Of a stretch of DNA of 64,000 nt, positions 12,171-34,042 are shown piece after piece. The stretch lies in the NCBI RefSeq assembly GCF_038002825.1, contig NZ_JBBODF010000001.1:5456001-5520000 (forward strand), given 5' to 3'. The notes below the pieces were generated by a model that had not been told where the DNA came from, did not search any database, and saw only the letters and a program-made list of their open reading frames with translations. Within the stretch, counting starts at the first letter, position 1. Each line of letters opens with the position of its first letter. This DNA is from Paenibacillus sp. FSL H8-0048 (GTDB taxonomy: Bacteria; Bacillota; Bacilli; Paenibacillales; Paenibacillaceae). The position numbers and the translations under genes are program-made.

Positions 12171-12737
12171 GTGGAGAATCTGGAAGGCAGACTGACAAAG
12201 CTCGCCCTGAAGGGTGACCAAAGGGCATTTGCCGAGCTTGTGGATCTATATAAAGATAAAATTTATCATTTGGCTTACCGTATGCTGAATAACCGCCATG
12301 AGGCGGAGGATGTTGTTCAGGAGACTTTTTTGCGCGTCTACAGAAATTTGGATAGGTATGATGATAAGCAGAAGTTCTCGACATGGATCTACCGGATTGG
12401 CACGAACCTCTGCATTGACCGGCTGCGTAAGCGGCGCCCGACCTATTCCCTGGATGCCGAGATGAACGACCAGGAGGGGATTGACGGGTATTCGATGATT
12501 CCGAGCGATAATGTGACACCGGAGACGGAGCTTCTGCTCTCGGAGACACAGAGACTCATCTATGAAGCCATCGACAGCCTGCCCGTGAAGTACAGGTCGG
12601 TGATGATTCTGCGGTATTTGCAGGATTTGTCACTTCAGGAGATCGGCGATGTGCTGGATATGCCCGTGACGACGATTAAGACCCGGGTGCACCGGGGCCG
12701 TGAGTTTTTACGTAAGAAATTAGGACCCAAATTGTAA
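12171..12737 (+). CDS. sigW: ECF RNA polymerase sigma factor SigW
   Basis: Group IV sigma factor of 188 residues that directs genes protecting against cell-envelope stress such as antimicrobial peptides. Region 2 is at about residues 20-95 (LVDLYKDKIYHLAYRML, then AEDVVQETFLRVYRNLDRY) and region 4 at about 125-180 (LPVKYRSVMILRYLQDLSLQEIGDVLDMPVTT in segments). The region 2-4 linker (SLDAEMNDQEGIDGYS) and following context, anti-sigma gene and then cdaA, match the conserved Bacillales sigW-rsiW-ybbP(cdaA)-ybbR(cdaR)-glmM-glmS locus. It starts at GTG after GGGGGAATTAACAG. Confidence 0.93.
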   Translation: MENLEGRLTKLALKGDQRAFAELVDLYKDKIYHLAYRMLNNRHEAEDVVQETFLRVYRNLDRYDDKQKFSTWIYRIGTNLCIDRLRKRRPTYSLDAEMNDQEGIDGYSMIPSDNVTPETELLLSETQRLIYEAIDSLPVKYRSVMILRYLQDLSLQEIGDVLDMPVTTIKTRVHRGREFLRKKLGPKL

Positions 12738-20392: not shown

Positions 20393-21784
20393 ATGTCCGG
20401 GTACAGAGTAAGCAAATACAACATTTATTTGGAAATGAAGCGGGATCAGAATAAAAAACTGATGATTCAGGGAATTCGCGGAGCCTTTGATATTGTGGAT
20501 CATTCCATCGCTGAAATTCTGGAAAAAGGTGAAGCGGATAGCAGCGTGCTGGATGCCATCAGCATTGAGGACAAAGAGGTTCTGGCCAACAGAGGATATA
20601 TTACCACTCTAACAGATGAGGAAGAGTATAAAGTGATTGAGAGAATCAGTCACACCTTGAACGCCAGCAGCCGAAAAAATTTATGTATTACCATCATGCC
20701 TACCTATAACTGCAATTTCAGATGTGAATATTGCTTTGAACAAAATTTGCTGGCTAAAGGTAAGGAGTTTCTTAATAAGAAAATATCAGTAGAAACAGTG
20801 GATGCGATCTTTGTCCAATTAGCTAAATATAAAGCTGAGGGTTATAAAATCGGGAGTGTCTACTTATTTGGCGGAGAGCCGCTTTTGAAAAGCAGTAAGG
20901 ATATTGTAACTTACATATGCGAAAAATGCCGGGAAATGAATATTCCTATCAGTTGCATCAGCAACGGTTATTTTCTGGATGAATATGTCGATTTGATCAA
21001 TGAATATAAGTTTCAAAAAGTTCAAATTACAATTGACGGAATCGGGGAAGAGCATGATAAGCGAAGATTTCTGGTAGGGGGACAGGGAACGTATGACAGA
21101 ATAAAAGCCAACATCAGCTTAGCGTTGGAAAAAGGTAATAATATTTCATTGCGAACCAATGTCAACCGTAAGAATACCGATTCCGTAAAGGCTTTAATTG
21201 AAGAATATCAAAAAGAAGGCTGGATCGGCAAACCTAATTTTCATTATTATTTCAAGACAAATATCAGATGTTATGAGCAGGAGGACGAGAACGCCCTCTC
21301 TGATGTGGAATTGATGCAGCAGTTAGGAGAGTATGTAGGCCAGGGCACGGACCGCTTTAACCTGAACAGTATTTACAGCGGATTAGCCGAAGGGATTAGA
21401 TATATGCTGCAAAATAACAGCTATGCACCGCTCCGTTCAGGTTTTTGCGGTGCAAATACAGGAATGTACACGATAGATCCATTTGGAGATATTTATCCTT
21501 GTTGGGATGTGTTATCCGAGGCGGACAGCCGTATTGGCACGGTAGATGTTCAGCAAGGAGAATTTGTCCTTACTGACGTACATAGTACCTGGAAAGACAG
21601 AACGGTAGACCGTATCAGCGATTGCAGCAAATGCAGATATATGCTGTTTTGCGGCGGCGGCTGCTCTGCCCAGGCTAAAGTAATGCACAATGACATGAAT
21701 CAGGTGTATTGTGATGATTTTACTGCTCTTTTTGATGAGGTTGCCGTGGATCTGTGTGAAGAATATTCCGCTGTGCCATCATAG
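20393..21784 (+). CDS. Radical SAM/SPASM peptide maturase
   Basis: Radical SAM enzyme of 463 residues, the likely main maturase of the cluster. Residues 1-95 form a winged-helix-like region such as binds leader peptides; the 4Fe-4S motif is CNFRCEYC (Cys107, Cys111, Cys114), followed by LFGGEPL near residue 163. The C-terminus is a full SPASM domain with CGANTGMYTIDPFGDIYPCW and CSKCRYMLFCGGGCSAQA, which binds auxiliary clusters. Such enzymes make thioether, C-C or other crosslinks in ribosomal peptides. The precursor genes begin 50 bases downstream. The ATG at 20393 follows AGAGGAGAAATT; a TTG at 20372 is less likely. The gene is AT-richer than glmS before it. Confidence 0.93.
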   Translation: MSGYRVSKYNIYLEMKRDQNKKLMIQGIRGAFDIVDHSIAEILEKGEADSSVLDAISIEDKEVLANRGYITTLTDEEEYKVIERISHTLNASSRKNLCITIMPTYNCNFRCEYCFEQNLLAKGKEFLNKKISVETVDAIFVQLAKYKAEGYKIGSVYLFGGEPLLKSSKDIVTYICEKCREMNIPISCISNGYFLDEYVDLINEYKFQKVQITIDGIGEEHDKRRFLVGGQGTYDRIKANISLALEKGNNISLRTNVNRKNTDSVKALIEEYQKEGWIGKPNFHYYFKTNIRCYEQEDENALSDVELMQQLGEYVGQGTDRFNLNSIYSGLAEGIRYMLQNNSYAPLRSGFCGANTGMYTIDPFGDIYPCWDVLSEADSRIGTVDVQQGEFVLTDVHSTWKDRTVDRISDCSKCRYMLFCGGGCSAQAKVMHNDMNQVYCDDFTALFDEVAVDLCEEYSAVPS

Positions 21785-21834
21785 GCGCTCCACAGATCAT
21801 TAAGCAATAATTAGTCTTTCTAACCAGAAAGGAG

Positions 21835-21981
21835 GTGGATTTTGTTCCTATTGTTACTCTGAATCAGCACCTGGAAGGGGACATTGAAGACATCGAGAAG
21901 ATGATTGTGGAGATGGTAGCAAGGGAAGAGTGTTCCTGCACCGGCAATGGCTGCGGTGGGGATGCTTGTGGCATCAAATAA
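21835..21981 (+). CDS. Precursor-like peptide 1 (Cys/Gly-rich core), start codon uncertain
   Basis: Small peptide of about 48 residues with a leader (LNQHLEGDIEDIEKMIVEMVAREE) and core CSCTGNGCGGDACGIK that align closely with peptide 2. The start is a problem: AAAGGAGG at 21828-21835 is excellent, but the in-frame GTG at 21835 overlaps it, no other standard start lies before the conserved leader, and the well-spaced TTG at 21842 is in another frame and stops after six codons. Either the GTG or a non-standard codon (ATT at 21850) is used, or the gene has lost its start. The core has four Cys, in the pattern CxCTxxGCGxxACG. Confidence 0.7.
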   Translation: MDFVPIVTLNQHLEGDIEDIEKMIVEMVAREECSCTGNGCGGDACGIK

Positions 21982-22004: not shown

Positions 22005-22145
22005 ATGAACCGGATTGAATCCCTGAACCGCCAGATTGAAATGAGCAGTGAGGAATTCGAGGATATGATTGCCGAGTTGGTGGAAAGAGAAGAATGTGCC
22101 TGTACGCTGGATGGATGCGGAGCTAAAGCCTGTGGCGTGAATTAA
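22005..22145 (+). CDS. Precursor-like peptide 2 (Cys/Gly-rich core)
   Basis: Clear small gene of 46 residues with ATG after AAAAAAGGAAGTGTGGACA. The acidic leader (SLNRQIEMSSEEFEDMIAEL, then VEREE) precedes a C-terminal core CACTLDGCGAKACGVN with Cys31, Cys33, Cys38 and Cys43. The pattern CxCTxxGCGxxACG is shared with peptide 1. The arrangement is that of a radical-SAM RiPP precursor, with a leader recognised by the maturase and Cys residues as donors for thioether bonds. The Cys-Gly spacing resembles peptides of the so-called ACGX radical SAM families, from memory only. Confidence 0.88.
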   Translation: MNRIESLNRQIEMSSEEFEDMIAELVEREECACTLDGCGAKACGVN

Positions 22146-22181: not shown

Positions 22182-22316
22182 ATGGAGATTAAGATGCTGA
22201 ACCAAGAACTTGACACTGACAGCCAGGAAATGGAGCAACTGATATCGGAGCTGGCTGAACGCGGAGAAATGGCTTGCACTGGAAATGGTTGTGGAGCGCA
22301 AGCGGAAGGCCTTTAA
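22182..22316 (+). CDS. Precursor-like peptide 3 (two-Cys variant)
   Basis: Peptide of 44 residues, too short for most gene callers, starting at an ATG behind AGAAAGGA. Its leader (LNQELDTDSQEMEQLISEL, then AERGE) is homologous to those of peptides 1 and 2. The core is CTGNGCGAQAEGL: only Cys32 and Cys37 remain, and the third Cys position of the ACG motif is Glu42. It may give a product with a single crosslink, or may be a copy that is losing function. Confidence 0.82.
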   Translation: MEIKMLNQELDTDSQEMEQLISELAERGEMACTGNGCGAQAEGL

Positions 22317-22357: not shown

Positions 22358-22549
22358 GTGATTACTTCTATGAATTCTGCGATCGACAATGAAGAACTGG
22401 ACTTATTCATGAATGAGCTCGAAGAAAGAGATGAGATGCTGTGTTTTTTTAATGCCTGTGGCGCCGCTGCCAACCCATGTGGTGGCCAAGCCTGTGCCGC
22501 CGGCTGTGTCGGTATTTCTGTCTGCTTCCTGGGGCTGCACGTAGCCTAA
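22358..22549 (+). CDS. Precursor-like peptide 4 (six-Cys, extended core)
   Basis: Peptide of 63 residues from GTG 22358, which follows AGAAAGGAGCGTAACCT. The leader (IDNEELDLFMNELEERDEM) resembles the end of the other three, but the core is longer and different: Cys29, 34, 41, 46, 50 and 56 in a Gly/Ala-rich, increasingly hydrophobic sequence ending ISVCFLGLHVA. The NACG and QAC segments echo the GCG and ACG of the siblings. Four precursors with one leader type and different cores suggest one set of enzymes making several products, or a two-component system. Confidence 0.85.
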   Translation: MITSMNSAIDNEELDLFMNELEERDEMLCFFNACGAAANPCGGQACAAGCVGISVCFLGLHVA

Positions 22550-22641: not shown

Positions 22642-25059
22642 ATGAATACAGCTACCCCAGTCAACAGCTATTCATGGAGCAACCCTGTCCTTAAGGTGAA
22701 GGAAGAAGTGGAAATTTCAGTATTTGACGATGGCAATGAACAGCCCTGCTATCTGATTACGATGAACGGACGTCAATGGAAGGTATCAGAGACTATTTAT
22801 TATATCCTGTTCAGCATGGACGGCCAGCGGACGGTGGAAGAACTGCAGGAATTTTTGCATGATCGTTATTCACTGAGAATCAGTAAGCAGAAATTGGAGC
22901 AAGTCATTGAGCTAACTTTAGTCCGTAATGGAATTCTGGAAGGTACGATAGCTACAACCGAACCCCCTCATAATAAAATGATGTGGGGCAAATTCACTTT
23001 GCTCCGTCCAAGTGTAATCGCAAAGCTCAAAATTTTTATTTTTTTATTCCATAAAAAGACGTTGACGGGTCTTAGTTCCCTTGCTGTTATATGGCTTGCC
23101 TATATTTTATTCGCCTATTCCAATACACAGGTAATTGGCAGCATGTTCAGTCTGGATATCAAGGATATTGCCTTATGCGTATTTTTTATTTTTGCAACAG
23201 GATTGATTCATGAGTTTGGTCATTCCATTGCAGCAATGTCCTATGGTGTTGCTCCAGGCAGAATTGGTGTTGGAGTATATTTTGTGATGCCGGTAATGTT
23301 CTCGGATGTCACTAGAATTTGGAGAATCAAACGTCATCAGCGTGTAATTGTGGATTTGGCAGGAATGTACCTTCAATGTGTTTTCTTGATGCTGTCCTTC
23401 CTGTTCAATGCGCTATTCTTGCATAGTCATCTCTTGAATATAGCTATTTTACTCTCTGGATTTACGATTCTCGGCAATTTTAATCCTTTTATCAAATTTG
23501 ACGGGTATTGGGTGCTGGTTGATTATCTGGGGATTACAGAGGTGAAGACAGTTATATATCAATTATGGGCCAATCTGTTTTATAAGGTCTTGGGCAGACC
23601 GGCAGTTCCAGTTTTACTGAGTAAAGGAAAAAAAGCCGTGATGTATATATATTCGTTACTTACCGTGTGCTTTTTCGCATCGTTCATCCGGTTCCTGGTA
23701 GAGAGCTGGATTCTGGCGTTCCACAACCTCAGCCATGATATCACAGCTTTGTTAAAGCTGACTCCTTCACAGGTCAATATCAGCTTTGCTGAAGCGGTCA
23801 GATATTTGTCTGACAGAATCACTACATATATTGCCTTGTTCTTTTTCTTGAATCTGGTTTGGCGTTTTATGGTCAAGAAAGTGCTTCTTCAAATCAAAAA
23901 AAACGCACGCGTGTGCCGGAGGAGGTACGCTGTGCAGTTGATTGAAACCTACCGCCAGATTGCACGGAGAGAGATGCTGGATTGCAGAATTAAGTCTCTT
24001 CAGGAATGGGTCCGGCACTACGGCTTAAATCTTCATTCCTATGAAATTATGCTGTTAAGTGAAAGCTATACCTTCATGTATGACCGAATCAAAATACCCG
24101 GGGTAGCCATTGAGGCATTGCCTTACGCTGTAGCATCACAGAATCAGGTGGAAATCCGTTTTTTCCGAAATTTAAATATCCAATATCATCAGGAGCATAT
24201 ATCCGGTGATCTTCCGGGCTGGGAACAGTTCAAGCGCTTAATAGATCAAGACATTCCTGTGTTGTTCAAAATTGACAGCCGCTTCCTGAGAGGGGCTGAG
24301 GATGCTGCTCCTCGAGCACTCAAACTTAACCTGTATTATCTGTCTACCTTATTGCTGGTTGGCTATGATGAAGAACAGGATCAGGCGCTGGTCGTGTTGA
24401 CCAACGATGATGAGCGGGAAAGCGTGAACGAAATCAGTATAGGTGAATTCCAGACCTACAGACACTCCAGTTGCGTACCGTTCTCACCGGGAGGCTTGTG
24501 CTATTATTTGAAGCCGAATGATGGGGACGCCGGAATTCGTTCTCCTGACATTAGGGAGGCTGTACTCAACAGTATTATTGCGACCACGAATATCATGCTG
24601 AACGAAGGCGAGTGGCCCCAATCGGATCTAGGGCTATTTATTGGTGAATCAGACTCCTGGGGGATTCAGGGCATGAAGAGGCTGCAAGAGGATTTACAGA
24701 GGCTGCTGCTTCAATGCAAGACCCAGGGCAACTCGGCGATTATCCGGCTAAAGATAGTTTTTTTGCGCAACAATCTGTTGTTCGGGAGTTATTCTGCATT
24801 CCGAGAAGAGTTTGGACGATGCATAAAATACTGTGCTTTAAAATATAATGTACCTTATTTGTATGATACAGGTTGCGAGTTTGCCCAAATAACATCTTTA
24901 TGGAAGGAGCTCTTCACCTTGTTCAGCAGGATTGCACATAATAAAGGAGAACTGGCCGCAAATCTGCTGCAGGCTCTTCAGGTTTGGGAGAAGATTATTG
25001 TATCAGAGCAGCGACAGTTTACAGCTATCAAAACTATTTTCAGCACCGCTTCTATGTAG
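22642..25059 (+). CDS. PqqD-like / M50 metalloprotease / BtrH-like acyltransferase fusion
   Basis: An 805-residue protein with three parts. Residues about 30-100 (RQWKVSETIYYILFSMDG, then RTVEELQEFL) resemble a PqqD-type peptide-binding domain. Residues about 130-420 are a multi-pass M50 protease with HEFGH at 190-194 and the third metal ligand in KFDGYW at Asp287, as in YydH-type RiPP proteases. Residues about 430-800 match BtrH plus its DUF4872-like tail: DCRIKSLQEWVRHYGL with Cys448 at the nucleophile position, then LLSESYTFMY and LLVGYDEEQDQALVV. BtrH moves an acyl group from a carrier protein to an amine, and a carrier protein and acyl ligase are encoded downstream. ATG 22642 follows GGGAGAGGAACTT. 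The M50 and BtrH assignments are firm to fair; the fusion's role is inferred. Confidence 0.82.
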   Translation: MNTATPVNSYSWSNPVLKVKEEVEISVFDDGNEQPCYLITMNGRQWKVSETIYYILFSMDGQRTVEELQEFLHDRYSLRISKQKLEQVIELTLVRNGILEGTIATTEPPHNKMMWGKFTLLRPSVIAKLKIFIFLFHKKTLTGLSSLAVIWLAYILFAYSNTQVIGSMFSLDIKDIALCVFFIFATGLIHEFGHSIAAMSYGVAPGRIGVGVYFVMPVMFSDVTRIWRIKRHQRVIVDLAGMYLQCVFLMLSFLFNALFLHSHLLNIAILLSGFTILGNFNPFIKFDGYWVLVDYLGITEVKTVIYQLWANLFYKVLGRPAVPVLLSKGKKAVMYIYSLLTVCFFASFIRFLVESWILAFHNLSHDITALLKLTPSQVNISFAEAVRYLSDRITTYIALFFFLNLVWRFMVKKVLLQIKKNARVCRRRYAVQLIETYRQIARREMLDCRIKSLQEWVRHYGLNLHSYEIMLLSESYTFMYDRIKIPGVAIEALPYAVASQNQVEIRFFRNLNIQYHQEHISGDLPGWEQFKRLIDQDIPVLFKIDSRFLRGAEDAAPRALKLNLYYLSTLLLVGYDEEQDQALVVLTNDDERESVNEISIGEFQTYRHSSCVPFSPGGLCYYLKPNDGDAGIRSPDIREAVLNSIIATTNIMLNEGEWPQSDLGLFIGESDSWGIQGMKRLQEDLQRLLLQCKTQGNSAIIRLKIVFLRNNLLFGSYSAFREEFGRCIKYCALKYNVPYLYDTGCEFAQITSLWKELFTLFSRIAHNKGELAANLLQALQVWEKIIVSEQRQFTAIKTIFSTASM

Positions 25060-25093: not shown

Positions 25094-25492
25094 ATGAGCA
25101 GAAAAAAAATCTTTATCCTGTTGTCTGCCGGATTGCTGCTGTTAATATCGGTCGTGCTTATTGGGGCGGGCTTCCTTGGTCCTGATGTCAGAGTGGGATA
25201 CGGCGAAAACAGCTATGGGAACAAACTGAACGCCTCTTTCTATTATTTTAACGGTACTAACACTAAAAAGCTGAAATTCAACAAAGGAGACCAAGTCAAG
25301 ATGACTTACTCCATTGAATTATCCAAAGGAACCCTCCAGATGAAAGTAAGGGACGAGGCTGACAACGAGGTTTTTCTCAAGACAGAGGGCTCAGGAGAGG
25401 TCGACTTCATTGTAGATAAGACCCAAAATTATGAAATCGAAATCAAGGCTATAAAAGCAAAAGGCAAATATACGCTAGATTGGAGCAAATGA
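25094..25492 (+). CDS. Small membrane-anchored extracellular protein
   Basis: A 132-residue protein with an uncleaved-looking N-terminal hydrophobic segment (about residues 6-28, FILLSAGLLLLISVVLIGAG) and a beta-rich exterior (KLKFNKGDQVKMTYSIEL, FIVDKTQNYEIEI). There is no lipobox. Small proteins of this type are common in peptide-antibiotic clusters next to ABC transporter genes and sometimes contribute to self-protection. That is analogy only; I do not recognise a family. It lies between the protease fusion and the FtsX-type permease. Confidence 0.75.
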   Translation: MSRKKIFILLSAGLLLLISVVLIGAGFLGPDVRVGYGENSYGNKLNASFYYFNGTNTKKLKFNKGDQVKMTYSIELSKGTLQMKVRDEADNEVFLKTEGSGEVDFIVDKTQNYEIEIKAIKAKGKYTLDWSK

Positions 25493-25529: not shown

Positions 25530-28025
25530 GTGCTGGCGTACGTGAAAATAATTACAAAATACATCCTCAAACATATGGCTGCGAACCGGCTAATCAGTCT
25601 GTTAATCGTTATTGCCTTGACCCTCTCTACTGCAATGATTTATTTGAATATGACGGTCAAAGATCAAATGCTGTTGCAGTATAAGTCGATCCTTCAGGGA
25701 ACATACCAGGATTTTAATTACTATGTATATAAAAGCAACGTCTCCAGCGAGCAGGATAGGTATTTTAGTGTAAATGAGCTGAATTTATCCAATCTAAAGG
25801 TCAAAAACCTACTGGGGCTTACAAAAGCTCCCGGTGCCGGCCAATTAAAAGAGGGAGTCACTCCGCTGAATATCTATGGCATGGACTTAAGCCTGGTACT
25901 GGAAAACAAGCTGCTGGTACTTAAAGAGAGGAAGGCCGGCTTTGATCCTGCCGCTAAGCAACAAGTGATTATCAGTCAGCGTGCAGCGGAAAAGTATGGT
26001 TTTCATATTAATGATACCTTACAGGTATCCACTTTGGCTGGGGAACAAAAGCTGATAGTGGGCGGAATTGCTGAGAATAAAGGCTTATATTTGAAGGAAA
26101 ATAATAAATTGATGTTATTCTCTTCTCCTCAATATGTAGGATATTTAAATGGAATGGGAGACAAGGTGTCAGGTGTCTATGTCCAGAAGGACCTTGCGAT
26201 GGCACCGGAGCATTTCGACACCCAGTTTAGGGCTGATAATCCGGCTTTTACTGGTGACATGCTTGCCAATGAGGCTGCCATTAAGGCAGAGCTGGAGAAA
26301 ACCAATCAGTTGCTGTTTATTGTTTTGCTCGCGGTAATTCTGATGGTTTTCTATTTAAACGCCAGTAATACCAGGATCATTGTGGCCAAAAGAATGCCCG
26401 AAATAGCAACCTTCCGCAGCATTGGGGCCACCCGCTTCAGAATGAATCTGATTCTGCTTGCTGAACATGCGCTATATGGATTGTTTGGCGGTATTATTGG
26501 TGTAATTGCAGGAGTTCTTCTGAAAGAGCCAGTGATGTCCGCTCTGGGCTCCTACGGGGGGAAGGCTTCCTATTTGAATATTCCGGATAAATTTGAAATT
26601 CGATATGTAGTATATTCGCTGGCTTTGACAGTGATTTTTCAGATTCTGGTCTCTATGTATGGAATTCTATCGGCAAGCCGCCAATCGATTAGAGCCATTA
26701 TGCTGGATACTGTATATGCCAAGGCCAGAGTCTCCAGGCCAAGAAGTCTATGCGGGCTCGTCCTCTGGGGATGCTCCATTCTTTTGTATATTGTCAATAC
26801 AGAGTATAGCCTGCTGCTGGCAGGTCTGGTATTTATACTGCTGCTGACAGGTACGATTTGTATGCTTCCTTGGCTTATTAGAGGCTTATCCAGAATTCTC
26901 TCCAGGATAACAAGATTGCGGGCTGGAGCGAGCAATCATCTGTGCAGCAAGAATCTTGCGGGCAGCAAAACCATTCACTCTAGTATTACACTGGTAACAG
27001 TCACTCTATCTATAATGCTAACCATCTATTTAACAACATTATCGATTAATCAGGTATTTGCACGGGTGGGCGAGAGCTTTGAAGGGGATATTCAACTGAC
27101 GGGCTTGTCTGAGCGCGCTGAAATGTACAGCAGACTTGAACTTGTGGAAGGGGTGCAGTCCCTTCAGCCTGTATACTACAGCTTCAATAATATTACAGTT
27201 AATCATCAAGCCATGAATATAGGCATCTTTGGGATGGATCATGAGATGCTCGGAATCAAGGATACCTCGGATAAAATGAGTGGACTGTCAGCAGGAGAAG
27301 CTTTGATCGACAAATATTATGGGCCCCGCAACCAACTGGACATCGGTGACCGGCTGACCCTGAGGAGTGCAGGGAAGGAGGCATTTACAGTGAAGATAGC
27401 CGGCTATGTGGATGCTGGAGAATTCACTTCAAGCAGAAATGTAGTTGTGATCTCTCCAGAGCAATATCTGCAAAAAGTGAGCCGGATTCCAGCCACCATT
27501 GAAATCGGGATTACAGGAAAACCGGAGCAGGTGAAAGATCAGTTGATCCGGACACTGGCTGGAACAGGAGTCAATGTGCAGACTGTGAAGGAGTTCCTGG
27601 ACGGCAACAAAAGTGAGATTGATTCTTTATTGTCTTTGATCAACCTGATTATAGGCTTGTCTGCCTTGATTGCCTTTACGGGCGTGCTCATTAATCAACT
27701 GATCGGATTTCTTCAGCGTAAAAAGGAGTATGCAGTTTTATATTCCCTCGGAATGAGCAGGTCACAGTTGAAGCGGATGGTTGTTATTGAGCTGGCAGGG
27801 ACTTTTGTGACCGGCTGTCTGTTTGCCGGAGGTCTTGGCCTGGTTCTTGCAAAGGCACTGGAGCAGATTCTTTTTTGCATCGGTGAATACGTAAGCATAA
27901 GCTTGGATGTGGCGGCCGCCTGCACATTACTGGGGGGGATGTTCCTTCTTCTGATGATGGCTTCAGCGTTGTCGATCCGAAGAATCCCAAGCTTGAATGT
28001 CGTCCAGGAATTGAAATACGAATGA
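25530..28025 (+). CDS. FtsX/MacB-type ABC transporter permease
   Basis: An 831-residue permease with two FtsX-like domains. An N-terminal helix (residues about 18-38) is followed by a large extracellular domain, then helices near 260-380 with the motif EIATFRSIGATRFRMN. Central helices lie at about 410-500, a second extracellular domain follows, and the final helices (730-820) carry EYAVLYSLGMSRSQLKR. This layout fits BceB/LolE-like permeases that remove peptides from the membrane. Its ATPase is probably the LolD-type protein at 29556, encoded three genes later. The start may be GTG 25530 or GTG 25542; the second is better spaced from TAAAGG. Confidence 0.85.
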   Translation: MLAYVKIITKYILKHMAANRLISLLIVIALTLSTAMIYLNMTVKDQMLLQYKSILQGTYQDFNYYVYKSNVSSEQDRYFSVNELNLSNLKVKNLLGLTKAPGAGQLKEGVTPLNIYGMDLSLVLENKLLVLKERKAGFDPAAKQQVIISQRAAEKYGFHINDTLQVSTLAGEQKLIVGGIAENKGLYLKENNKLMLFSSPQYVGYLNGMGDKVSGVYVQKDLAMAPEHFDTQFRADNPAFTGDMLANEAAIKAELEKTNQLLFIVLLAVILMVFYLNASNTRIIVAKRMPEIATFRSIGATRFRMNLILLAEHALYGLFGGIIGVIAGVLLKEPVMSALGSYGGKASYLNIPDKFEIRYVVYSLALTVIFQILVSMYGILSASRQSIRAIMLDTVYAKARVSRPRSLCGLVLWGCSILLYIVNTEYSLLLAGLVFILLLTGTICMLPWLIRGLSRILSRITRLRAGASNHLCSKNLAGSKTIHSSITLVTVTLSIMLTIYLTTLSINQVFARVGESFEGDIQLTGLSERAEMYSRLELVEGVQSLQPVYYSFNNITVNHQAMNIGIFGMDHEMLGIKDTSDKMSGLSAGEALIDKYYGPRNQLDIGDRLTLRSAGKEAFTVKIAGYVDAGEFTSSRNVVVISPEQYLQKVSRIPATIEIGITGKPEQVKDQLIRTLAGTGVNVQTVKEFLDGNKSEIDSLLSLINLIIGLSALIAFTGVLINQLIGFLQRKKEYAVLYSLGMSRSQLKRMVVIELAGTFVTGCLFAGGLGLVLAKALEQILFCIGEYVSISLDVAAACTLLGGMFLLLMMASALSIRRIPSLNVVQELKYE

Positions 28026-28052
28026 GCCAAAATGGGAAAAGGATGGGATAGG

Positions 28053-28766
28053 GTGACGGCTATTATGGAGTGCCTTGCATTGAGCAAACGGTATGAGCAT
28101 CATACCGCGCTTGATAATATCAACGTGACGGTGGAGCAGGGAAGGATTGTCGGATTGCTCGGACCCAACGGCAGCGGCAAGACAACTCTGCTCAAGCTGA
28201 TCAACGGTCTGCTGGTGCCGTCGAGTGGAGAGGTGAGAATCAATGGAAGGAGCCCAGGCATAGAAACCAAGCGGCAGATCGCTTTCCTTCCTGAGAGGAA
28301 TTGTCTGAACAATTGGATGAAGGTGCAGGAGCTGGTCGCCTTTTACAGCGATTTCTATCCGGACTTCAGCCGCAGCATGGCCTATGAGTTACTAAATAAA
28401 CTGAATATCAACTCCAATGCCCGATTGAAGACCCTCTCTAAGGGGACAAAAGAGAAAATACAAATTATTCTTGTGATGAGCCGTGATGCAGAGCTGTACT
28501 GCCTTGATGAGCCAATCGGCGGGGTAGACCCCGCATCCAGAGACTATATCATCGATACGATTCTGAAATGCTATAACCGAAAAGCCTCCATTTTAATTTC
28601 CACCCATCTGATTGCGGATATCGAGCATATTCTGGATGATGTAATCCTTATCGATCAGGGATGCCTTGTACAGGCGGCGGCAGCCAAAGACATCAGGACC
28701 GGAAATGAAATGACTGTCGATCAATATTTTAGGAGGCTTTATGCTAAAAAAACTGATCAAATATGA
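28053..28766 (+). CDS. ABC transporter ATP-binding protein (YtrB/CcmA type)
   Basis: ATPase subunit of about 237 residues. Walker A is GPNGSGKTT near residue 35, the signature is an atypical LSKGTKEKI, and Walker B is LYCLDEPIGGVDP. Segments FYSDFYPDFSR and LDEPIGGVD are typical of the YtrB-like group that pairs with ABC-2 permeases. The permease gene overlaps its 3' end by 26 bases. GTG 28053 is chosen after GGAAAAGGAT; ATG 28032 or ATG 28065 are alternatives. Confidence 0.85.
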   Translation: MTAIMECLALSKRYEHHTALDNINVTVEQGRIVGLLGPNGSGKTTLLKLINGLLVPSSGEVRINGRSPGIETKRQIAFLPERNCLNNWMKVQELVAFYSDFYPDFSRSMAYELLNKLNINSNARLKTLSKGTKEKIQIILVMSRDAELYCLDEPIGGVDPASRDYIIDTILKCYNRKASILISTHLIADIEHILDDVILIDQGCLVQAAAAKDIRTGNEMTVDQYFRRLYAKKTDQI

Positions 28767-29529
28767 TTTTAAATCAACGATGAGGTATATGTTTCCTGTG
28801 TATCTGATTTTCGTCTTTTTTACAGTATTGGCCTGGGGAACGACCCGTTGGAGCGTATTTGCTGGAGTCTTCGCATTCATTCCTGTTGTGTCCAAGCTGA
28901 CCTATGAGCTGATGCTGGCAGCGGTCATTCTTATAACATACGCTCTGCAGGCTATCCGGTATTATACCAGCATGGTTACTGATGAAGGGTATCTAACCTT
29001 CACTTTGCCTGCTCCTACCCGGAACTTGACCCTTTCCAAGCTTATAACCGCAGTAAGCTGGAATGCTGCAACAATGCTGCTGGTGCTGGCTTCGCTGGCG
29101 GTAGTCTTTTATTCCCCAGACAATTCTCGAGTTTTTAGGGAAGCATTGGAAGGTTTTTTTCAATCAGGAACGGCTGGTCCGGGGACGAGGCTGGTTATAG
29201 CTGTAAGCTCAATAGTAGCTATATACATGGTTTCTTCCATGACCATTAATTTATTTATGTACACGGCTATAGCCTTGGGACAAATTCTTATGGGTAAAAA
29301 CAGACTGGCAGGCACTTTTATTGCAGGCATTGTCGTCTATATTGTAATGCAAATTCTGCTGGTGGCTCTGCTGGTGCCGGCTATATATCTGCTCGGACTC
29401 CATACCGTAAATCAGAGCGGCAATATGTTGTCCTTGATTGGGATATGTGTATTGTTTCAGTTGTTGATCTGCGGTCTTATGTACAGCACGATAAACTATA
29501 TTTTCATCAAGAAATTAAATTTAGAATAA
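28741..29529 (+). CDS. ABC-2 type transporter permease
   Basis: Membrane subunit of 262 residues with about six helices, starting within the end of the ATPase gene and preceded by TTAGGAGGCTTT. The stretch MVTDEGYLTFTLPAPTRNL near residue 80 is a hallmark of ABC-2 permeases next to YtrB-like ATPases. Together they could export the mature peptide or protect the cell from it. Confidence 0.82.
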   Translation: MLKKLIKYDFKSTMRYMFPVYLIFVFFTVLAWGTTRWSVFAGVFAFIPVVSKLTYELMLAAVILITYALQAIRYYTSMVTDEGYLTFTLPAPTRNLTLSKLITAVSWNAATMLLVLASLAVVFYSPDNSRVFREALEGFFQSGTAGPGTRLVIAVSSIVAIYMVSSMTINLFMYTAIALGQILMGKNRLAGTFIAGIVVYIVMQILLVALLVPAIYLLGLHTVNQSGNMLSLIGICVLFQLLICGLMYSTINYIFIKKLNLE

Positions 29530-29555
29530 GGGCAATGGATTAGGAGGGGAGCGTC

Positions 29556-30263
29556 ATCTCATTACTTGAACTGAATCATGTTTACAAGCAGTACAAGGAT
29601 GCTGTTGTTCTGAAGGACGTATCACTAATCATTGCAGAGGGGGAATTTACCACAATAATGGGCTCGTCGGGCAGTGGGAAAAGCACACTCCTGTACATTA
29701 TGAGTGGTATGGAGTATCCAACCAGCGGGACTGTCCACTTATCTGGACGCGATCTTAACAAATTGTCGGACAGACAAAAAAGTAAAATTCGCCAAAGTGA
29801 AATAGGCTTTGTATTCCAGAACTATAATCTTGTTCAAAATCTGACCGTGGAGGAGAACATTGAGCTGCCGGTTCTGTTAGCAGGCAGAAAGAGAAGCACT
29901 GCCGCATCTGGGCTGGAGGAACTACTGGAGCTTCTGGCACTGACAGAACATAGGCGGAAGCTTCCTGCGCAATTGTCAGGAGGGCAGCAGCAGCGGGTGG
30001 CGATTGCCAGGGCAGTTATTAATAATCCCCCGTTGATTCTTGCCGATGAGCCTACTGGAAATCTGGACACCGCCTCGGCGGTTCAGGTGATGGAAATGCT
30101 GCAGCAGCTTAACCGGATTTGGCAAACAAGCATTGTACATATCACCCATAATGCAGAATTGATCGGCTATGGCACCAGAAATATAGTCGTCAAGGATGGA
30201 CAGTTGGTATCGGATACCTTGTTAGCTGCTGATTCTCGCATTGCCATTGTTGGAAACTCTTAA
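29556..30263 (+). CDS. LolD/MacB-type ABC ATPase with a non-standard start codon
   Basis: ATPase of about 235 residues: the N-terminal strand [13 protein letters not shown], Walker [11 protein letters not shown]-loop VFQNYNL, signature LSGGQQQR, Walker [13 protein letters not shown]. It is the natural partner of the FtsX-type permease at 25530. No ATG, GTG or TTG is available upstream: the frame after the stop at 29541 reads GAG GGG AGC GTC ATC TCA. AGGAGG at 29542-29547 is ideally spaced, eight bases, from ATC 29556. Starting at ATG 29658 would remove the first beta strands and leave only the P-loop, so initiation at ATC, or a sequence error, is more likely. Confidence 0.8.
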
Positions 30264-30276
30264 GGAGACTGGTCAA

Positions 30277-31884
30277 ATGAGTGAATTAGAGCGAAACGCC
30301 ATGTTCATGGGAGGAGCAGATAGTATCCCTGAATTTCTGTCTCACAGTGCAGGGAGATACCGCCATCAAACAGCGGTTGAGGCCAAGCAAGACGGCGAGA
30401 GGCTTCAAAAAACATACCTGCAGTTAAAGTCTGATTCGGATGCACTGAGCGCTGCGTTTGAAGCGAGGGGGCTGAGCCAAAAACATGTTGCTTTTATCGG
30501 CGGTTTGAGCTACGAGTGGCTGGTTGCTTTTTTTGGAGTGACAGGCTCTAGCAATATAGCCGTTCCTATGGACAAGGATTTAAGCCTGGATGATCTGGTA
30601 ACCCTGGTTCTTCAGGCCGATATATCCATGTTGTTTGTAGATAGCAGCATGTCGCACATTGTACAGCAGTTGAGGCACAGTTGCGAAACTCTGGAAGTGA
30701 TCGTGTGTTTTCAAGCGGGAGGCCCCTTTCCAAGTATAGCTGAATTCATAAGAGATACCCGGTGCAGCGAGAAACTTAGGTCCACTCATGTGGATGCAGA
30801 TCAGACGGCTATGATTGTCTTCACCTCAAGTGAAACAGGCGGCTACAAAGGCGCAATGCTCTCCCACCGGAATATTTGCCATAATATCATCTGCTCCGTC
30901 TATCTGGCTGGCATAGAAGCCTTTGAGCCCGGAGGGTGCACAGTTGTCGTATTGCCGCCGCATCATATGTTTGCCGTTACGTCAGGGATGCTGGTTCCGC
31001 TGTTGTTTTACGGCTTGACGCTGTGCCTTAGTGGCGGGTTAAGCGGCTATCTGAGCAGTATACAGCAATTCCGCCCCTCGGTGCTCTTTATGGTTCCCAT
31101 GCTTGTGGAAGGCTTACATAAGCGGATCTCGCGAGAGGCAGCAAGGACGGGGCAGTTGAACCTTGAATTTTTTGGCGGACAGTTGCGTACGATTATTTGC
31201 GGCGGGGCTTATCTGGACGCGGAATGGGTGGTGAAATATAAGAAGCTGGGAATTAACCTATTGAACGGATACGGAATTACCGAATGTTCACCGCTTGTCT
31301 CCTGTAACCGGCCTAACGGGATCATCAGTCATTCTGTGGGGCTGGTTGGGCCAGAGCCATATTGCCGGGTACGAATCGAAGATGACGAGATTCAGGTTCA
31401 AGGAAGTATTGTGATGAAGCAATATTACAAGGATTGCAAGAGCACAGCGGAGGCTTTTGACCAGGGCTGGTTTAGAACGGGAGATTTGGGTTATCTGGAT
31501 CAGCATAATTACCTCTATATTACAGGGCGCAAAAAAGACCTTATCATTCTGAAGGACGGCAACAATATTTCACCGGTGGGAATAGAACAAAGCATCGAAC
31601 GGCACCCATTAGTAGATCAGTCACTGGTTTATGCGGACGGTAAGAAGGGTGGGGAGACCCTGGTGGCCATCATACACCCTGATTATGATTATGCAGTTAA
31701 CAACGGATATACTGATGTGAGGTTAGCTTTAGACGAACTCATACAGATGCTAAATGACAATTCGCCTGCATTCAGACGGATTCGGAGACTAGAGGTAAGC
31801 GAGAAGCCCTTCGATAAGCTTGCATTGAAGAAGGAGCTAAGAGCGCCTACTAGAATAACCAGAGAGAAGGTAAATCATGATTAG
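30277..31884 (+). CDS. Acyl-AMP ligase (fatty acyl-CoA/ACP synthetase family)
   Basis: ANL-superfamily enzyme of 535 residues that activates a carboxylic acid with ATP. Motifs are IVFTSSETGGYKGAMLSH (A3 loop, with SSE instead of the usual SGT), LNGYGITECSPLVS (A5), FRTGDLGYLD (A7) and GRKKDLIILKDGNNISP (A8); a C-terminal Lys in FDKLALKKEL is likely the A10 catalytic residue. Overall it is closest to long-chain fatty acid ligases. With the carrier protein overlapping its 3' end by eight bases it should load an acyl chain onto that carrier. The start is ATG 30277 after TAAGGAGACTGGTCAA. Confidence 0.9.
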   Translation: MSELERNAMFMGGADSIPEFLSHSAGRYRHQTAVEAKQDGERLQKTYLQLKSDSDALSAAFEARGLSQKHVAFIGGLSYEWLVAFFGVTGSSNIAVPMDKDLSLDDLVTLVLQADISMLFVDSSMSHIVQQLRHSCETLEVIVCFQAGGPFPSIAEFIRDTRCSEKLRSTHVDADQTAMIVFTSSETGGYKGAMLSHRNICHNIICSVYLAGIEAFEPGGCTVVVLPPHHMFAVTSGMLVPLLFYGLTLCLSGGLSGYLSSIQQFRPSVLFMVPMLVEGLHKRISREAARTGQLNLEFFGGQLRTIICGGAYLDAEWVVKYKKLGINLLNGYGITECSPLVSCNRPNGIISHSVGLVGPEPYCRVRIEDDEIQVQGSIVMKQYYKDCKSTAEAFDQGWFRTGDLGYLDQHNYLYITGRKKDLIILKDGNNISPVGIEQSIERHPLVDQSLVYADGKKGGETLVAIIHPDYDYAVNNGYTDVRLALDELIQMLNDNSPAFRRIRRLEVSEKPFDKLALKKELRAPTRITREKVNHD

Positions 31885-32155
31885 AGAACAGAATGACGAG
31901 ACGATGCTGAAAATCAAAACAGTGATCTCTCCATTTACAGATGTTGATATTCAGGAGATTCAGATGGAATCCAAGCTGATTTGCGATCTGGGGTTCACTT
32001 CCTTTGATTTAGTATGTCTGCTGTCTGTACTGGAAGAAGAATTCGGTCTGAAGGTCGATGAGAAAATGCTGAAAGGTATTCAAACGGTGGAAGATGTGAG
32101 GAATGCAGTCTTAAAGCACCAGGCGTCAAGCCAGACAGTTCTAAAAACCGAATAG
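31877..32155 (+). CDS. Acyl carrier protein
   Basis: A 92-residue acyl carrier protein. The phosphopantetheine site is in DLGFTSFDLVCLL with Ser42; the usual DSL is TSF here. The surrounding helices (LKIKTVISPF, LSVLEEEFGLKV, VEDVRNAVLKH) fit the four-helix fold. It overlaps the acyl ligase gene by eight bases, so the two are made together. It is a dedicated carrier, distinct from the fatty acid synthase ACP. In this cluster it probably presents an acyl group to the BtrH-like domain of the fusion protein. No phosphopantetheinyl transferase is encoded nearby. Confidence 0.9.
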   Translation: MIREQNDETMLKIKTVISPFTDVDIQEIQMESKLICDLGFTSFDLVCLLSVLEEEFGLKVDEKMLKGIQTVEDVRNAVLKHQASSQTVLKTE

Positions 32156-32169
32156 AAGAGGTGAAGAGG

Positions 32170-33453
32170 ATGACAGTATTGATGAAGAAAGCTGTTCTGA
32201 ATGAAGAGGCCTTAAGTGCAATGCAGCAATGCGATTTAAGCGAATTGGCCGGATATGTGGGGGAATTTTTTCAAGGTAAGAATGAGAGCTTTACGTACAA
32301 CCCGGCCGGCGGCAATTTTTATATGAGCAGTTTCTTCCCCTCCTTCCCCAGCCCTGCCTGGAATCGGCTGATCGCTGGTATTCATGACATTGTCTATGAG
32401 GACAAGCGAGTTCCGCTTCAAGCTGATATTGTGGTTACGGGAAGATGCCATTGCGACTGCTGGCACTGCTTCAGAGCCAAATACGGACAAGAAGATATGA
32501 GTCTGGATAAAATTAAGGAATGTATGAATGCTTTAGCGGAGCTCGGGGCTGCTTCGGTGGGAATTACTGGAGGGGAGCCTATGCTGCGGACGGACATTAT
32601 GGAGATTATCGGAGCCATACCGGAAGGAATGGAAGGGGTTCTATTCTCAACCGGTCTTGGCATTGATGATGCTTTTGCGCTCAAGCTGGAGCATACCCGT
32701 TTGACCAGATGTATACTGAGCCTGGATCATTTCGATGAGGAAATTTGCTGTAAGCTCAGACGTAACCGTAACGCCTTCAAGGATGCTGTACAAGCCATTC
32801 AAGCACTGACGGCTAAGGATATCTATACGGCTGTGACGGTCTGCATTACGCATGAATTGATGAAGGAAGGGGCATTGCAGCAGTATTTCGAATTTGTCGG
32901 GGGGCTTGGGGTTCAAGAGGTGCGGGTAGTGATGCCTATTCCGCAGGGTAATCTGGAAGGTCAAGAGGTAGGCAGATTTTATGGAAAAGCCATGGGATTG
33001 TTGAAACAGCTAAAACGAGAAAATGCAGCCAATGAGGCATTCCCGGTCATTATTAATTTCTGCGAGTTTGAAAGCTCAGATTACTTTGGATGCGGTGCAG
33101 GCTCCAATTATATTGCGATTAATAATGACGGCCATGTGTCGCCATGCGTCTCAGTGCCCTCCTCATTCGGAAGCGTATATGACCATACATTGGAGAAAAT
33201 ATATAATGATATGGGAGCCATCTTCTCCAGCTCCAATTGTGCCTGCTTCGGAATTTCATCCAGCAGTGTCATTGCCAAAGAAAATATTGATACTTCCTTA
33301 ACGCCGATGCCGCCTGAGTTGTCCGTTGAGGTTGCCAAAAAATGCAGAGTTTCAAGTGAAAGAGCGGGCATATTCAGATATTGTGCCTCCAAAGGCCGGC
33401 CTAAGGAGGAAGCGGCGGGTGAAGCTGAGCTTGAATTACCGAGTTCTGTCTAG
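32170..33453 (+). CDS. Second radical SAM enzyme
   Basis: Radical SAM protein of 427 residues. The cluster motif is CHCDCWHC with Cys93, Cys97 and Cys100 as CxxxCxxC ligands plus an extra Cys95, followed by GITGGEPML. The C-terminal part has more cysteines (FGCGAGSNYI, INNDGHVSPCV, SSNCACFG, FRYCASKG), consistent with a SPASM or twitch-like auxiliary cluster but not the standard spacing. It differs from the first maturase in sequence and lacks its N-terminal region. It may act on the peptide or on the acyl chain while it is on the carrier protein encoded just before. GTG 32161 is an alternative start. Confidence 0.88.
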   Translation: MTVLMKKAVLNEEALSAMQQCDLSELAGYVGEFFQGKNESFTYNPAGGNFYMSSFFPSFPSPAWNRLIAGIHDIVYEDKRVPLQADIVVTGRCHCDCWHCFRAKYGQEDMSLDKIKECMNALAELGAASVGITGGEPMLRTDIMEIIGAIPEGMEGVLFSTGLGIDDAFALKLEHTRLTRCILSLDHFDEEICCKLRRNRNAFKDAVQAIQALTAKDIYTAVTVCITHELMKEGALQQYFEFVGGLGVQEVRVVMPIPQGNLEGQEVGRFYGKAMGLLKQLKRENAANEAFPVIINFCEFESSDYFGCGAGSNYIAINNDGHVSPCVSVPSSFGSVYDHTLEKIYNDMGAIFSSSNCACFGISSSSVIAKENIDTSLTPMPPELSVEVAKKCRVSSERAGIFRYCASKGRPKEEAAGEAELELPSSV

Positions 33454-34042
33454 GTTATATGATGTATGTGATTTGCTGTTCTTCAGCCGACCCGGAAGGA
33501 GTCCCCGCCAAGCCTTATTAGGCTTCTTACCGGATGAACCGGTCCATATCCTTGATATCTGTGCGGGCACAGCCAGCAATGACATTCTGATTGCAGAGCA
33601 GAAATCCAATGCTACGGTAGTCGGAATTGATAATTCCAAAGAGATGCTCTCCATAGCCCGCAGGAAAATAGCCCAAAAAAAGCTTCACGGTGTGAACATG
33701 CTTGAAATGGATGCCATGAAGCTGGAATTTGCCGGACAGTCTTTTGATGTGGTGATTATTTCATTGATATTACATGAGATGGGAAAACCCTTGGCCAGCA
33801 AAATGCTAAGCGAAGCACGGAGGGTTGTAAAACCGGAGGGAATGATCTTAGTAGTAGAGTGGGAGCAGCCTCAGGGCTTGTTTCAGAAATGTATGTTCTC
33901 CATCATTAAGCGGCTTGAATTCGACAACTTTGAACACTTTTTGAAAAAGGATCTGAAACAGTATTTTAAAAATCACGGATTCAGTATCGAAAATGTGAAG
34001 CACTGCGATTATACGCAAATTCTCCAGCTTAAAGTCCAGTGA
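33419..34042 (+). CDS. Class I SAM-dependent methyltransferase (UbiE-like)
   Basis: Methyltransferase of 207 residues with motif I ILDICAGTASNDI, motif II VVGIDNSKEML, and motif IV VVIISLILHEM. The start is GTG 33419, nine bases after AAGGAGG at 33403, inside the end of the radical SAM gene (35-base overlap), so the two are coupled. The resemblance to UbiE/MenG enzymes suggests C-methylation or O-methylation of a small molecule or peptide. It is the last gene of the cluster. Confidence 0.88.
   Translation: MKLSLNYRVLSRLYDVCDLLFFSRPGRSPRQALLGFLPDEPVHILDICAGTASNDILIAEQKSNATVVGIDNSKEMLSIARRKIAQKKLHGVNMLEMDAMKLEFAGQSFDVVIISLILHEMGKPLASKMLSEARRVVKPEGMILVVEWEQPQGLFQKCMFSIIKRLEFDNFEHFLKKDLKQYFKNHGFSIENVKHCDYTQILQLKVQ

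Follow-up and report, generated by a model that had tools for sequence, protein, structure and literature searches.

The window, a stretch of 64,000 nucleotides from Paenibacillus sp. FSL H8-0048, contains a radical SAM RiPP cluster in which one gene joins an M50 metalloprotease to a BtrH-type domain. The cluster also encodes four precursors rich in Cys, an acyl carrier protein (ACP), and a ligase resembling FadD. The fused gene sits in an island of lower GC content (39 to 48%), flanked by a housekeeping run of cdaA, ybbR, glmM, and glmS at one end and an AraC-like gene at the other, as named by reading the translations. Coordinates are those of the window, and all of its features given with coordinates below are on the plus strand. 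The radical SAM RiPP maturase (20393..21784) is 46% identical to its counterpart in the clusters, described below, that carry the two halves as separate genes (the split clusters). The nearest models for this protein, and likewise the small Cys-rich precursors, recall the Clo7bot, TIGR04463, and CefB Cys-rich peptide systems, but it is not a member of those families, because its scores fall far below the curated cutoffs (149.5 versus 525 bits for TIGR04463).

Four precursors were found by ORF reading and alignment: precursor 1 (...VAREECSCTGNGCGGDACGIK) at 21844..21981, precursor 2 (MNRIESLNRQ...EREECACTLDGCGAKACGVN) at 22005..22145, precursor 3 (MEIKMLNQ...ERGEMACTGNGCGAQAEGL) at 22182..22316, and precursor 4 (...ERDEMLCFFNACG...VCFLGLHVA) at 22358..22549. 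Precursor 4 has a long hydrophobic core and a counterpart in the split clusters. All share the leader motif ELxERxEM/C followed by xC. Across the precursors, four here and three in each split cluster, the residues N, E, R, E, C, and C are invariant; the leader is conserved, and the Cys-rich core is variable. No family was matched when the precursors were searched against NCBIfam. The region of precursor 1 (21811-21981) has AAAGGAGG yet no well-spaced ATG, GTG, or TTG.

Downstream of the fused gene lies a small exported protein (25094..25492), a possible immunity protein that shares 34% identity with a lipoprotein-like product of the split clusters. It is followed by ABC genes recognized with NCBIfam (25530..30263), comprising an FtsX/MacB-like permease, an ATPase, a permease, and a LolD-like ATPase, which probably serve export or self-protection. 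Next come the FadD-like AMP-binding acyl ligase (30241..31884; PF00501, E = 1.3e-46) and the acyl carrier protein, with its Ser in GFTSFDL (31877..32155; PF00550, E = 1.2e-7). A second radical SAM/SPASM protein (32161..33453; profile search) and a SAM-dependent methyltransferase (33326..34042; NCBIfam), the real start of which is probably internal, complete the set.

The fused gene (22642..25059) encodes a protein of 805 amino acids. Profiles, alignment, and structure prediction identify in it an M50/daptide-type membrane metalloprotease joined in frame to a full-length BtrH_N plus DUF4872 domain (residues 443 to 799). The ATG at 22642 is the likely start and has a good ribosome binding site upstream. 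A more upstream, in-frame ATG at 22477 was rejected as the start because it would overlap precursor 4 and has no clear ribosome site. An earlier, sequence-only reading had taken HEFGH (residues 190 to 194; 23209-23223) and FDGYW with Asp287 (23500-23502) as marks of an M50 protease, and Cys448 (23983-23985) in DCRIKSLQEWVRHYG, plus LLVGYDEEQDQALVV, as marks of BtrH; all of these motifs are where that reading placed them. The fusion that it described was confirmed: there is a single in-frame ORF, and both halves are present. Its interpretation, that one protein cuts the leader and acylates the new amine, was supported in part; it had not seen that the only relatives found, three in number, have two overlapping genes.

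The N-terminal half (22642..23931) comprises, by profiles and hydropathy, a weakly PqqD/RRE-like region, about six predicted transmembrane helices, and the M50 motifs. The NCBIfam model of the daptide M50 protease (daptide_HExxH, NF041824) matches residues 42 to 354 with an E value of 2.1e-34, bearing out the M50 assignment, although its score of 119 bits is below the curated equivalog cutoff of 300; the YydH/LiaK model matches more weakly (E = 4.3e-13). His190, Glu191, His194, and Asp287 are invariant in an alignment of 11 homologs, and both HExxH and the downstream Asp lie in a multipass membrane protein. For a leader-binding PqqD-like/RRE domain there is a weak match (PF05402, E = 0.09 to 0.12). 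The protein resembles MpaP (NF041824) and the YydH/LiaK epipeptide proteases in its HExxH and downstream Asp, its membrane topology, and its position in a RiPP cluster. It differs from them in its fusion to BtrH, in its precursors, and in scoring below the NF041824 cutoff.

The C-terminal half (residues 443 to 799; 23968..25038) was assigned by profiles, alignment, and structure prediction. Pfam BtrH_N (PF14399) matches residues 448 to 584 with an E value of 1.1e-6 and 29.4 bits against a cutoff of 29.7; in a whole-genome search the score was 33 bits, above the cutoff, and the split homolog in L040 also exceeds it at 33.8 bits. DUF4872 (PF16169) weakly matches residues 607 to 793. A custom profile built from canonical BtrH proteins spans residues 443 to 799 with an E value of about 5e-20, and this together with the BtrH_N match shows that the homology is not due to chance. 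A first structure prediction from 4 sequences was dropped (pLDDT 48). With 34 sequences as input, a model of good confidence was obtained for the C-terminal half (pLDDT 83, pTM 0.86), and it has a papain-like/C39-like fold. A Foldseek comparison against the PDB gave AziU3, CcbD, and CtaG as the best matches (E = 1e-9 to 1e-6; target-normalized TM scores of about 0.6 to 0.68), with a C39-like peptidase (3erv) next, so the BtrH-like fold proposed by the earlier reading is supported by the model. CcbD is a carrier-protein-dependent amide synthase that works by a ping-pong mechanism with a Cys-His-Glu triad and takes fatty acyl groups (PMC12945683); CcbD/LmbD belongs to lincosamide synthesis and CtaG to the closthioamide cluster. 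AziU3/U2 is an aziridine synthase (PMC12559475), and the fold alone is therefore no proof of acyl transfer. The segment that follows the last transmembrane helix is rich in Arg and Lys (11 K+R in 34 residues), which places the BtrH half on the cytoplasmic side of the membrane, together with the ACP.

Of 396 genomes of the family, only three besides this one hold both halves; they belong to other species of the genus and carry the halves as two adjacent overlapping genes. When about 85,000 species were scanned, the split pair turned up in Paenibacillus piscarius P121 only, which is one of these three. The order radical SAM, precursors, M50, and BtrH is common to the window and the three split clusters, and the BtrH halves are 29% identical. 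All four of these clusters encode a supply of acyl-ACP, but by different genes: the window has the FadD-like ligase and ACP, whereas the split clusters have an ACP, a double ketosynthase (KS), FabG, and FabZ, named by sequence reading. The three split clusters (L038, 5217-13619; L040, 5297-13722; L041, 5217-13616) run from the ACP, double KS, FabG, and FabZ to the radical SAM protein, three precursors, M50, and BtrH, and apparently form a FAS-fed lipidated RiPP family. Seven further M50 relatives examined in the family (L042 to L048) are in radical SAM clusters without BtrH. A viral scan gave no relatives; on plasmids, relatives of the M50 half and canonical BtrH proteins were found, none of which spanned the fusion. 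A further fusion was not found in the collections searched.

Homology to the acyl-ACP:aminoglycoside acyltransferases of the BtrH family (PF14399 plus PF16169) extends over both domains. Adjoining acyl-ACP genes are a further shared feature, and Cys448 aligns with the family Cys, which is present in 32 of 34 sequences (31 of the 33 others). The likeness to the family does not extend to the rest of the triad. At the position of the catalytic His, which in the family precedes the G[YFM] of the motif by six residues, Ser568 (24343-24345) and its equivalents occur in all four M50-linked proteins, compared with His in 28 of the 30 others of the 34-sequence alignment. At the third triad position the four have Leu (Leu586; 24397-24399), where Asp or Glu is found, again in 28 of 30 others. 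A replacement His was sought in the four M50-linked proteins, but no His is invariant among them, and a nearby RH is RN in L041. The CcbD triad is Cys-His-Glu, and the PDB includes variants of CtaG at C11, H128, and D144, whereas the window protein lacks both the His and the acid. The His noted in BtrH before the Cys is Asp447 here, as the sequence-only reading had remarked; the same position also varies elsewhere, being N or Y in relatives and S or D in paralogs from the same genome. The Asp of the family DxYYL motif is retained as Asp545. Cys448, in MLDCRI, is among the best-conserved points of the four M50-linked proteins.

Because the catalytic His and acid are absent, we do not class the C-terminal domain as a standard BtrH acyltransferase, although it is a BtrH homolog by descent and fold. 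The earlier designation as a BtrH-like acyltransferase accordingly holds for homology, fold, and Cys448 but had not taken account of the replacement of the family His and Asp. With His changed to Ser and Asp to Leu while the Cys is kept, a standard ping-pong reaction through Cys-His-Asp/Glu is excluded. The dN/dS values among the three split genes are 0.14 to 0.21 for BtrH and 0.10 to 0.11 for M50, and the changed BtrH site is therefore under purifying selection and not decaying.

As the simplest explanation, we propose that leader cutting may be coupled to ACP-dependent lipidation of a radical SAM RiPP by a rewired BtrH-type site, with the fusion having come about by a one-base change; we regard the chances that this is right or wrong as evenly balanced. 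The protein would be a membrane maturation enzyme of the radical SAM RiPP pathway. Its M50 half would remove the leader, with the conserved ELxERxEM/C ahead of xC, and its cytoplasmic half, of the BtrH/CcbD/CtaG fold, would dock acyl-ACP made with the cluster ligase and carrier protein. The acyl group would pass via Cys448 to the freed core peptide, probably to its N terminus or an N-terminal Cys, and the ABC transporters would then export the lipidated peptide. Leader removal and N-acylation would thereby be linked. Against acylation by a fused enzyme stand the single fusion among four systems, the replaced His and Asp of the triad, and the aziridine synthase that shares the fold.

An unlikely alternative is that the BtrH half has lost acyltransferase function and serves as a docking module for carrier protein or peptide, presenting acyl-ACP or the precursor to the protease or to a different enzyme. 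Replacement of two of the three triad residues in all four proteins would fit such a role, as would the other degenerate lineages of the family (L103/L104; L066, L067, and L069), but a docking module does not readily account for the high conservation of Cys448, the retention of Asp545, or the presence of an acyl supply in all four clusters.

The junction of the two halves bears on how the fusion arose and on whether the halves act as one protein. Within the fused gene, an internal Shine-Dalgarno sequence, AGGAGG (23920-23925), is followed after a 6-nucleotide spacer by an in-frame GTG (23932-23934), which sits where the split genes begin the BtrH ORF. In the split genes AGGAGG is followed after 7 nucleotides by a GTG in the +1 frame inside the M50 gene (in L038, AGGAGG at 12488 and GTG at 12501). 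A single base in the spacer is therefore enough to convert overlapping genes into a fused one. These arrangements are best explained by a one-base shift of register that joined two overlapping genes coupled in translation. A change from split to fused is the favored direction, since three systems are split and one is fused and a leftover start signal lies inside the fused gene. The sequence-only reading had missed the retained ribosome site and GTG; because of these, translation may also begin internally and yield a stand-alone acyltransferase domain.

It is quite unlikely, in our judgment, that the halves simply act as separate proteins, with BtrH made from the GTG at 23932 and the fusion incidental or a one-base sequence error. 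That reading draws on the split overlapping genes of the three relatives, on the retained AGGAGG and GTG, and on the fact that a single spacer base decides between the two states, but the base in question does not lie in a homopolymer, fused and split types alike read AGG AGG as Arg-Arg in the M50 frame, and the genome assembly has 2 contigs and a completeness of 99.99%. A run of eight A residues (23896-23903) lies shortly upstream of the junction and is a possible slippage site. An artifact through this run was judged unlikely, and no error there need be invoked, because the M50 frame through AGGAGG is the same in both types.

We also consider it quite unlikely that the BtrH half carries out some other reaction, such as hydrolysis, cyclization, or amide formation between peptide groups, on a carrier- or peptide-bound substrate, for which the aziridine-forming AziU3/U2 and the altered active-site residues could be adduced, since the acyl-ACP supply is conserved in both cluster types and amide synthesis is the reaction of CcbD, one of the closest structures solved.

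Returning to lipidation, a more specific and rather doubtful conjecture is that these systems represent a radical SAM RiPP class lipidated, without a Cys-His base, by a domain of BtrH fold that lacks the His and is linked to a leader protease. Since an invariant Cys adjoins the likely cleavage site, the acyl group could move by thiol exchange from Cys448 to an N-terminal cysteine and then by an S-to-N shift, with cutting and acylation both at the membrane. A base would then not be needed.

Lipidated RiPPs include the selidamides, goadvionins, and lipolanthines, in which acylation is by GNAT or PKS/NRPS-type enzymes; fatty acylation of a RiPP is also proposed here, but the acylating enzymes differ. 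Among the papers searched for BtrH with RiPPs, none linked the two or described BtrH-type acylation of a RiPP. RiPP M50 proteases and BtrH-fold enzymes are each of known kinds, and what is new is their combination and the rewiring; the window domain differs from the BtrH family in being fused to an M50 protease, or overlapping with it in the relatives, within a RiPP cluster. If the proposal is correct, RiPP pathways have recruited the BtrH/CcbD/CtaG amide synthase fold for lipidation, and a physical link to the leader protease couples cutting and capping. The mechanism would then be a real question of enzyme chemistry, because the His and acid are lost in a conserved way while the Cys is kept. 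The two cluster types would offer a natural comparison, of fused with split and of ligase-fed with FAS-fed.

The wider BtrH family showed further variation. The degenerate proteins L066, L067, L069, L103, and L104 lack the N-terminal Cys, L103 and L104 also lack the His, and all are probably noncatalytic or have other functions. Some canonical BtrH genes adjoin KS, FabG, FabZ, and FadD-like genes (L101, L102, and L106). In L106 (2468-17999), KS, FabZ, FabG, and ABC genes accompany a BtrH gene that lies beside a weakly BtrH-like gene encoding 438 amino acids. In one genome (L101, 7424-8500; L102, 1698-3910), three canonical BtrH-like genes lie close to FabG, FabZ, KS, and FadD-like genes and may belong to a multi-acyl pathway not yet described. 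In the genome of the window itself (L001 and L003), BtrH domains that have the family His end large PKS/NRPS-type ORFs, directly after an apparent carrier-protein domain.
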